From assembly GCF_002572525.1 (NCBI RefSeq), contig NZ_PDBS01000001.1, positions 3,782,001 through 3,846,000 on the forward strand: a stretch of 64,000 nt of DNA, written 5' to 3'. This document shows positions 24,565 to 57,300 of this stretch, piece by piece. Numbering within the stretch: the stretch's first letter is position 1; each line of letters begins with the position of its first letter. The stretch is from Natrinema sp. CBA1119 (GTDB lineage: Archaea; Halobacteriota; Halobacteria; Halobacteriales; Natrialbaceae). The translations under genes were made by a program, and so were the position numbers. The notes beneath the pieces are model-generated. The model saw only the letters and a program-made list of their open reading frames with translations, was not told the DNA's origin and made no database searches.

Positions 24565-24639
24565 GCTCCGATGGTGTAGTCCGGCCAATCATATTGCCCT
24601 CTCACGGCAATGACCTGGGTTCGAATCCCAGTCGGAGCA
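24565..24639 (+). tRNA. tRNA-Glu (anticodon CTC)
   Basis: 75 nt cloverleaf. Acceptor arms GCTCCGA/TCGGAGC pair perfectly, anticodon stem TTGCC/GGCAA encloses the loop CTCTCAC giving anticodon CTC, and the T arm is CTGGG-TTCGAAT-CCCAG. Discriminator base A, CCA not encoded. No intron. Reads GAG codons. A copy of its 3' 23 bp occurs 102 bp downstream. Confidence 0.96.
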
Positions 24640-55608: not shown

Positions 55609-56583
55609 ATGAGTGATACTGCCGCGCCGGACGTGCTCGTCCTCCGGAAGGGGACTCACGGCATTCCGATCGAACAGTACGCCGACGCGATTCGCGACCG
55701 ACTGCCGGACCACACCGTCGCGCTCGCGCGCACGCCGGCCGAGGAGCGCGATGCGATCCGGGACGCGACGTTCGTCACCGGCATGACCCTCGAGGCGGAC
55801 CTACTCGACGCGGCCGAGAACCTCTCAGTCTTCGCCTGTGCGTACGCGGGGACCGGCCACCTTCCCCTCGAGAAACTCGAGGAACGAGGCGTCGCGGTGA
55901 CGAACGCTTCGGGCGTCCACGGGCCGAACATCGGCGAGCACGTGCTGGGGTCGATTTTGCACTTCACCCGACGGTTCCACGTCGGTGCGCGCCGCCAGCG
56001 CCGCCGCGAGTGGCGACATTACAGGGCCCGCGAACTGCAGGGATCGACGGTCACCGTCGTCGGACTGGGCGCGATCGGACGGGCGGTCTGCGATCGGCTC
56101 GAGCCGTTCGGCGTCGAGACGATCGGCGTGCGCTACACGCCCGAGAAGGGCGGCCCGACCGACGAGGTGATCGGATTCGAGGGCGCGGCGTTCGACGACG
56201 CGCTCGCGCGCACGGACTACCTCGTGCTCGCCTGTCCGCTGACGGAGACGACCCGCGGTCTGCTCGACCACGAGGCGTTCGTGACGATCGATCCCGACGC
56301 CGTGCTGGTCAACGTGGCTCGCGGCCCGGTCGTCGAGACGGACGCGCTGGTCGAGGCCCTGCGGTCGAACTGGATCCGCGGCGCGTCGCTTGACGTGACC
56401 GATCCCGAACCGCTGCCCGAGGAGCACCCGCTCTGGACATTCGAAAACGTCCAGATTACGCCCCACAACGCGGGTCACACGCCGAAGTACTACGACCGGC
56501 TGGCCGATATCGTCGCCGAAAACGTCACGCGGATCGACGACGACGGGGCCGACGCCGATCTCGAGAATCAGGTTCTCCCCTGA
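55609..56583 (+). CDS. D-2-hydroxyacid dehydrogenase (NAD-dependent)
   Basis: 324 residues from the ATG at 55609. The C-terminal Rossmann domain has VVGLGAIGRAVCDRL (GxGxxG, about 186-200). The catalytic set is visible: Arg in NVARGPVVETDAL, Glu in DVTDPEPLPEEHPL, and His in ITPHNAGHTP. The family reduces 2-oxoacids or works as phosphoglycerate/glyoxylate reductase-like enzymes; substrate unknown. An in-frame upstream start would run through the AT-rich promoter and is rejected. Single gene. Confidence 0.92.
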   Translation: MSDTAAPDVLVLRKGTHGIPIEQYADAIRDRLPDHTVALARTPAEERDAIRDATFVTGMTLEADLLDAAENLSVFACAYAGTGHLPLEKLEERGVAVTNASGVHGPNIGEHVLGSILHFTRRFHVGARRQRRREWRHYRARELQGSTVTVVGLGAIGRAVCDRLEPFGVETIGVRYTPEKGGPTDEVIGFEGAAFDDALARTDYLVLACPLTETTRGLLDHEAFVTIDPDAVLVNVARGPVVETDALVEALRSNWIRGASLDVTDPEPLPEEHPLWTFENVQITPHNAGHTPKYYDRLADIVAENVTRIDDDGADADLENQVLP

Positions 56584-56667
56584 TCGGTGACGGCCGAACG
56601 GTTCCGTCACCTACCCAACTCGAACGGTGCCGTCATCCGTCCGCCCCCGCGACCTAATTCACTTTTT

Positions 56668-56751
56668 TAGCTGAATTGAGACGCTAATCCCCCTTCCTCA
56701 GCGAGCGCCGAAGGCGCGAGCAGGGAGGGGATACAGCGTCTCAATTCAGCT
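56668..56751. repeat. 84-bp hairpin element with 17-bp perfect inverted repeats
   Basis: Outer arms AGCTGAATTGAGACGCT (56668-56684) and its exact complement (56735-56751) enclose 50 bp that itself holds GCGCC-gaa-GGCGC and a CCCCCTTCC/GGAGGGG-type stem, so nearly the whole element folds into one nested hairpin. Outside lies a T run (CTTTTTT) on the left. There is no coding capacity. It could be a MITE-like relic, a bidirectional terminator or a structured RNA. Confidence 0.9.
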
Positions 56752-56868
56752 CAAGGAGCGAACCGCGTCAGCGGTGAGCGAGTAGGGTGGGGTAGTTCAC
56801 CGTCTGCTGCGAAGTACACGTATGGAACTGATACTACCGACCGTTCGCACGCGAGCGGAGGAAAAACG

Positions 56869-57300
56869 ATGACACTGACAGTCGATGGAACAGTTCTGGT
56901 TCCCGTCGCCGATCCGGACGACGGGGAGCGAACGGCTGTGGCGCTCGCGCCGCACCTTTCACCCTCGAGTACGGTGCTCGTCGTCAACGTAATCGAGAAG
57001 GCCGGCGGTGCGCCCGACAAGGCCTCCGTCGAACAGCGCGAGGAGTACGCTCGGGATATTTTCGAGCGCACTCAGGGGCCGCTCGAGGGGTCGGCCGGAA
57101 CGGTCGAGACGGTGATCCTCTTCGGGACCGATGTCGTCGAGACGATCATGGACGCGGCGTCGGAGCGAGCGGTCGACGCCGTGGTCTTTGCACCTCGGAA
57201 GGGAAACCGGTTCGTGGAACTGCTCACCGGCGATGTGGCCCGTCGGCTAGTGAGGCGGGCGTCGGTTCCCGTCGTCGCGCTGCCGCGAACCGACGACTAG
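56869..57300 (+). CDS. Universal stress protein (UspA family)
   Basis: 143 residues. Opens GTVLVPVADPDDGERTAVALAPHL, has VILFGTDVVETIMDAASERAVDAVVFAPRKGNRFVELLTGDVARRLVRRASVPVVALP at the end, which is the UspA nucleotide-binding pattern, although the canonical GxxGxxxxxxxxxG is only partly kept (the first Gly of the loop is Arg-Lys-Gly). Probably a small cytoplasmic stress or signalling protein. ATG start with a GGAGG-like sequence just before it. Confidence 0.85.
   Translation: MTLTVDGTVLVPVADPDDGERTAVALAPHLSPSSTVLVVNVIEKAGGAPDKASVEQREEYARDIFERTQGPLEGSAGTVETVILFGTDVVETIMDAASERAVDAVVFAPRKGNRFVELLTGDVARRLVRRASVPVVALPRTDD

Follow-up and report, generated by a model that had tools for sequence, protein, structure and literature searches.

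A probable IS200/IS605-type transposon remnant with a palindromised left end upstream of uspA in Natrinema sp. CBA1119

IS605-type elements that consist of their termini only, the core having been deleted, have been reported from the haloarchaeon Haloquadratum (PMC3119063), and the terminal-only elements of Haloquadratum walsbyi and the PATEs are the closest known counterparts of the sequence analysed here. In the H. walsbyi case described there, a deletion between direct repeats located in two palindromes left 52 bp (PMC3119063). A second relevant precedent comes from yeast, where the arms of inverted repeats are reported to be homogenised by template switching, and an arm of 5 bp to have become one of 16 bp (PMC8604942).

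The present analysis concerns an unusually stable hairpin of Natrinema sp. CBA1119 and the sequence that follows it, located in a 64,000-nucleotide stretch of DNA (the window, to which all positions refer). This hairpin is very probably the left end (LE) of a decayed IS200/IS605-type transposon that inserted upstream of uspA and lost its core, whereby the LE was joined to a truncated right end (RE). The remnant is most likely the neat fossil of a known transposon family, and not a new kind of system. A puzzling hairpin would in this way become a readable history of insertion into a probable promoter, followed by collapse.

The hairpin and the ends of related transposons

The preliminary description of this DNA reported perfect 17-bp arms, inner GCGCC/GGCGC and C/G-run stems and two co-oriented neighbouring genes, all of which were confirmed. 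The arms AGCTGAATTGAGACGCT (56669-56685) and AGCGTCTCAATTCAGCT (56735-56751) show perfect complementarity, with T56668 remaining outside the pairing; GCGCC/GGCGC (56705-56709/56713-56717) and a stem of a C-run with a G-run are found inside the hairpin, and Pfam places the 2-hydroxyacid dehydrogenase and Usp domains on the same strand. The extent originally given, 56668-56751, describes the hairpin, but the feature runs on to 56800, where the right end of the transposon finishes (Table 1). As RNA the hairpin folds with -58.9 kcal/mol (z -11.8) and as DNA with -34 kcal/mol (z -10.4), and in neither case did any of 200 shuffled sequences fold equally well; for comparison, the DNA folds of three ordinary LEs from relatives reach z values of only -2.2 to -2.8. 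At the gathering score, Rfam assigns no family to the hairpin, its sole match in the 64-kb window being a tRNA at 24565-24639. Two microRNA families that appeared on the hairpin at a lax threshold scored far under their gathering cut-offs and were taken as chance matches.

Table 1. Position of the probable remnant, its component parts and the neighbouring host features in the window
Feature	Position	Strand	Remark
D-isomer-specific 2-hydroxyacid dehydrogenase, upstream host gene	55609..56583	+	Pfam PF02826, E 4.9e-54
T-run, TATA-like, host	56663..56668	+	putative promoter role, from spacing in 13 aligned relatives
TTAG, presumed insertion target	56667..56670	+	borders the LE on its 5' side
Probable IS200/IS605-type transposon remnant, 130 bp	56671..56800	+	LE, inverted arm copy and truncated RE; core lost
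Right border of the remnant	56799 or 56800	+	empty-site comparison
Left end (LE) with subterminal hairpin	56671..56740	+	BLAST similarity itself stops at 56738
Outer stem proper to the LE family	GACGCT 56680-56685 / AGCGTC 56735-56740	+	consensus GGCGCT/AGCGCC
Inverted copy of the LE left flank	56741..56751	+	stem extended to 17 bp by the copy
Right end (RE), terminal GTTCAC	56750..56800	+	C-rich 5' arm of the RE hairpin missing
Leader ORF, 16 codons, overlapping the uspA start (MELILPTVRTRAEEKR)	56822..56872	+	comparable ORFs in relatives
UspA-like universal stress protein, downstream host gene	56869..57300	+	Pfam PF00582, E 3.5e-12

A query covering 56640-56830 was searched against the 29 genomes of the genus, at least 26 of which matched, and 49 stretches chosen from the matches were read. 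The listed matches mostly correspond to two modules, located at about positions 27-99 (56666-56738) and 111-161 (56750-56800) of the query, that recur separately in the genus. The left module was found in 42 of these 49 stretches, corresponding to 41 distinct loci (L041 and L114 are the same), and seven stretches were without it. At seven of the 41 LE loci (L038, L039, L040, L041, L042, L124 and L135) the RE is matched over 39 or more of its 51 nt on the same strand, 0.9-1.9 kb downstream, a further nine (L101, L102, L107, L109, L112, L117, L118, L119 and L120) carry a partial RE of 19-35 nt at 1.1-1.6 kb, and at three (L129, L132 and L133) the right half is fused into the left hairpin. No RE match was found in the expected place at the other 22, so that the presence of one end does not guarantee the other; these 22 include two loci with an RE on the opposite strand (L108, L127) and one, L110, that stops at a contig end. 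When two elements were scanned with Pfam, L038 was found to encode TnpB and L039 both TnpA (Y1_Tnp, E 3.2e-40) and TnpB. Because the two modules, which in relatives stand about 1.5-1.9 kb from each other, flank these genes, we regard them as the LE and RE of IS200/IS605-type transposons, in agreement with one early proposal for the hairpin, that of an IS200/605-type relic: each half of the feature corresponds to one end of tnpA/tnpB transposons. In L038, a 78-aa ORF without a Pfam match (900-1136) sits before tnpB, at the place where tnpA would be.

In the wider family, an exact LE core pattern, which catches two of the four lengthened LEs discussed below, gave 102 matches in 55 of 125 genomes and none in the reversed control. 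Single hairpins of about 75 bp in which LE and RE are fused, in the manner of solo LTRs, were retrieved by a pattern seven times in six of the 125 genomes (L141-L147), and L129 is another such fused hairpin, with one end diverged. The genome of strain CBA1119 itself contains five Y1_Tnp matches, of which four are free of internal stops and two of these four nearly full length, as well as 17 OrfB_IS605 matches (16 above the cut-off); none of the Y1_Tnp or OrfB_IS605 matches listed for this genome falls at 56671..56800. A transposase acting in trans may thus be supplied by the same genome.

The right end at the uspA site is broken. In all 12 other REs that were folded, one of them (L046) being a fused hairpin whose C-rich arm derives from an LE, C-rich bases before CTCA pair with a G-run near the right terminus; in the RE at the uspA site the arm copy has taken the place of the C-rich arm and the outer stem fails to form. 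The junction of LE and RE, TCTCAATTCAGCTCAAGGAG, occurs once with up to two mismatches, in one of 125 family genomes, the reversed control matching in eight. The RE hairpin being broken, the remnant is probably immobile, and it is unlikely to serve as a substrate of TnpA. A stand-alone guide RNA in the remnant is likewise judged unlikely, because the RE side retains no element sequence 5' of CTCAAGG; Rfam gave no match on 12 loci of relatives, intact and collapsed, and is therefore no indicator of omega-RNA retention.

The insertion site upstream of uspA

TTAG or TTAC directly precedes 28 of the 32 LEs that were aligned, and the REs compared terminate in GTTCAC (9/12) or GAAGTC (3/12). The preliminary description had reasoned that a single copy, if every relative had it at this position, would argue for a simple terminator. 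The relatives give another picture, as blastn at E 1e-3 matched neither LE nor RE in any of 31 syntenic loci (L047-L077). For a comparison of spacing, 13 syntenic relatives were selected after 20 spacers had been read. In these, the distance from the end of a T-run of 5-7 to an ATG upstream of usp is 23 nt at two loci and 24 nt at 11, and at the remnant-bearing site it is 153 nt; excision of 56671-56799 or 56671-56800 brings it back to 24 or 23 nt, respectively. The automatic search found no T-run box in L061.

Empty sites were compared by fixing the left border at 56670, trying 14 right borders and counting ungapped identities over 34 positions. Mean identity to the 13 relatives peaks at border 56799 (19.69/34), with 18.54 at 56798 and 18.23 at 56800, and is 16.31/34 if nothing is excised. 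Identity to the empty site L049, which itself carries the presumed target and reads TTTTTTAGC, peaks at border 56800 (21/34, against 18/34 at 56799 and 15/34 without excision). Excision closes to the empty site with no duplicated bases. Judged from these alignments, the insertion upstream of uspA looks precise, having taken place 3' of TTAG and without target duplication. In four Natrinema loci (L047, L048, L050 and L056), other, unrelated extra sequence or inverted repeats were read by eye in the same spacer. The spacer after the dehydrogenase gene may be a recurrent insertion spot.

The constant spacing in 13 relatives suggests that the T-run is a promoter element of uspA. The likeliest effect of the remnant would be the separation of this T-run from the start codon of the 16-codon leader ORF that precedes uspA, and, if the T-run does act as a promoter element, expression of uspA should have changed. 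At 15 of the 31 syntenic loci a short leader ORF starts 23-25 nt after a T-run and extends past the usp start, with an overlap of 4 nt in nine loci and 10 nt in six; among the remaining loci, the usp start was unrecognised by the script in 15, and one is without a box. At the remnant-bearing site the leader ORF (56822-56872) has been kept and the T-run displaced. The ORF has the appearance of a leaderless, translationally coupled leader peptide.

Lengthened left ends and their possible origin

In ordinary LEs the outer stem is short, about 4-6 bp (GGCGCT/AGCGCC), and some paired changes are seen in it (GACGCT/AGCGTC in L112, GGCGA/TCGCC in L120 and CCGCT/AGCGG in L115); over 32 LEs the covariation term of RNAalifold is weak (-0.13), with a double-sided change in two of 12 pairs. 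The stem at the uspA site is longer by 11 nt, since the sequence that follows is the left flank of the LE in inverted form. This inverted copy (56741..56751) is absent from the ordinary LEs compared, and its final CT is common to the RE. Over 37 LE contexts the complementarity of the arms is bimodal, with a run of 2-5 nt in 33 and of 10-15 nt in four, namely the uspA-site remnant (G000), which is the longest, G013, G025 and G072; because G072 came from a palindrome pattern, 4/37 is not a rate. A gapped pattern for palindromised ends, which lengthened LEs of another form would escape, matches 18 of the 125 family genomes (reversed control, 3/125) and 3 of the 29 genomes of the genus (reversed control, 1/29). 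Inspected letter by letter, four of the 18 matches are lengthened LEs, the remainder being unrelated sequence and one LE fragment (G067). No RE match was found near the lengthened LEs of G013, G025 and G072 at the loci examined, and these three could have another origin than the uspA-site remnant. The lengthened LE of G025 adjoins repeats resembling a CRISPR array (GTCGCTTCGACCCCACAAGGGTCCGTCTGAAAC; L082, about 1500-1700, read by eye).

The following course of events would account for the remnant. As the empty-site comparison indicates, an IS200/IS605-type transposon would have entered the interval that separates the T-run from the start codon upstream of uspA, on the 3' side of TTAG. The core, about 1.4-1.8 kb judging by relatives, would later have been lost, such that, by comparison with fuller copies, the whole LE hairpin became joined to an RE cut within its own hairpin. 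A replicating strand may have paused at the LE hairpin, where its nascent end would have folded back on the short outer stem and copied its own left flank over 11-13 nt (TC TCAATTCAG CT), making the arms perfect; synthesis would then have resumed within the RE at the CT microhomology, the core being deleted in the same event. We lean slightly towards this template-switch course, from pausing through fold-back and flank copying to resumption in the RE, and core loss and arm copying as two separate events are equally possible. The order of events is inferred, because no strain was found that has an intact element, or an LE with an ordinary, un-lengthened stem, at the uspA site.

Other readings of the same sequence have to be weighed against that of a decayed transposon. 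The palindromised LE might itself be a mobile mini-element, PATE-like or similar to a small mobile repeat, for which TnpA would act in trans. Lengthened LEs do occur at four different loci in four of 125 family genomes, the host genome offers the Y1_Tnp genes described above, and the 52-bp terminal-only element of Haloquadratum may be mobilised according to PMC3119063. However, each of the four genomes has a lengthened LE at one locus only, the LE-RE junction of the uspA site is confined to one genome in 125 (the reversed control giving eight), the RE hairpin is broken, and the arm sequences differ among the four, as if each had been made from its own LE; we thus regard this reading as unlikely. 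Slightly less credit still can be given to two LEs that once stood head to head and later collapsed, in which case the right arm would stem from the flank of another LE in opposite orientation. Such an arrangement would likewise account for an inverted left-flank copy. In the right arm, however, the 3' sequence of the LE itself (ATACAGCG) is followed directly by the inverted flank, where another LE would presumably have contributed an inverted junction of its own (GCTTAGCGCC in the consensus). The pairing of T56739 with A56681 also fits one arm templating the other. The pair is uncommon without being private to this site, one of 32 LEs (L112) having it as well, and it thus lends copying in cis little weight.

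The proposals of a MITE, a structured RNA or an attenuator, raised when the hairpin was first noted, fared less well than that of a relic. The suggested search for further copies with target duplications bore out its first half, both parts of the feature occurring repeatedly elsewhere, and failed on its second, as the empty site closes without duplication; a MITE is also at odds with the single LE-RE junction in 125 family genomes. MITEs have terminal inverted repeats at both ends and a target duplication, but the arms of this hairpin span only the left part of the remnant, its right terminus is a different sequence (the RE), and no bases are duplicated. That the sequence acts as a regulatory RNA, attenuator or terminator for the dehydrogenase or the uspA gene seems extremely improbable to us: the fold is very stable and lies between two co-oriented genes, and nothing positive was found beyond that stability. 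Against this function stand the 31 syntenic loci of relatives, none of which has an LE or RE match, and Rfam, with no family at the gathering score and two microRNA matches far below their cut-offs. Intrinsic terminators have a T-run after the stem, but here the T-run lies 5' of the hairpin and the plus strand after it reads CAAGGAGCG.

A decayed transposon being the preferred reading, its wider bearing depends on how often ends are palindromised. LE hairpins of haloarchaeal IS200/IS605 elements could be recurrent hotspots of template switching, in that the very hairpin which the element needs would also fold the replicating strand back. The outcome would be a class of palindromised ends without a core, which either inactivate their element or propagate as symmetrical mini-elements, and all four lengthened LEs, each from a different genome, would belong to it. 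We consider this generalisation rather doubtful. Should palindromised ends prove recurrent, the hairpins that IS200/IS605 elements require would at the same time contribute to inactivating these elements, a process that could be counted across archaeal genomes. A warning follows as well: where a haloarchaeal spacer holds a very stable hairpin, this may be the end of a transposon and not an RNA gene. We found no description of palindromised IS605 ends in open-licence PMC papers and do not claim that they are absent from print.

Comparison with known systems

With haloarchaeal IS200/IS605 transposons (TnpA Y1 and TnpB) the remnant shares TTAG before the LE hairpin, a GTTCAC terminus of the RE and the lack of a target duplication; its ends match those of elements encoding TnpB (L038) or TnpA and TnpB (L039), and it lies 3' of a short target, TTAG, with the host spacing restored on excision. 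It differs from them in having no genes and a broken RE hairpin. Intact elements carry a subterminal hairpin at both ends and a transposase of their own, but here the hairpin is present at the LE only and the sequence amounts to 130 bp. Because the RE hairpin has lost its 5' arm, we class it as a remnant and not as an intact element. The rewriting of one arm of an imperfect repeat as the complement of the other recalls quasipalindrome correction and template-switch mutations (PMC8604942); unlike those, it is coupled to the loss of a transposon core, and the event is deduced from its product and was not itself observed.

In PMC3119063, PATEs are defined as too short for a transposase and without target duplication, which applies equally to the remnant. 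Palindromes near both termini are represented here by the left one alone, the right being broken, and short-form copies that would indicate mobility as a unit were not found, the junction occurring once in 125 genomes. We thus call the remnant PATE-like and do not file it as a PATE. Like the terminal-only elements of H. walsbyi as presented there, it consists of IS605-type ends fused after loss of the core, with neither transposase nor target duplication. The seven LE/RE-fused hairpins in six of the 125 family genomes come closer to that Haloquadratum type, whereas at the uspA site the LE hairpin is whole, has its stem extended by its own flank in inverted copy, and is joined to a truncated RE.
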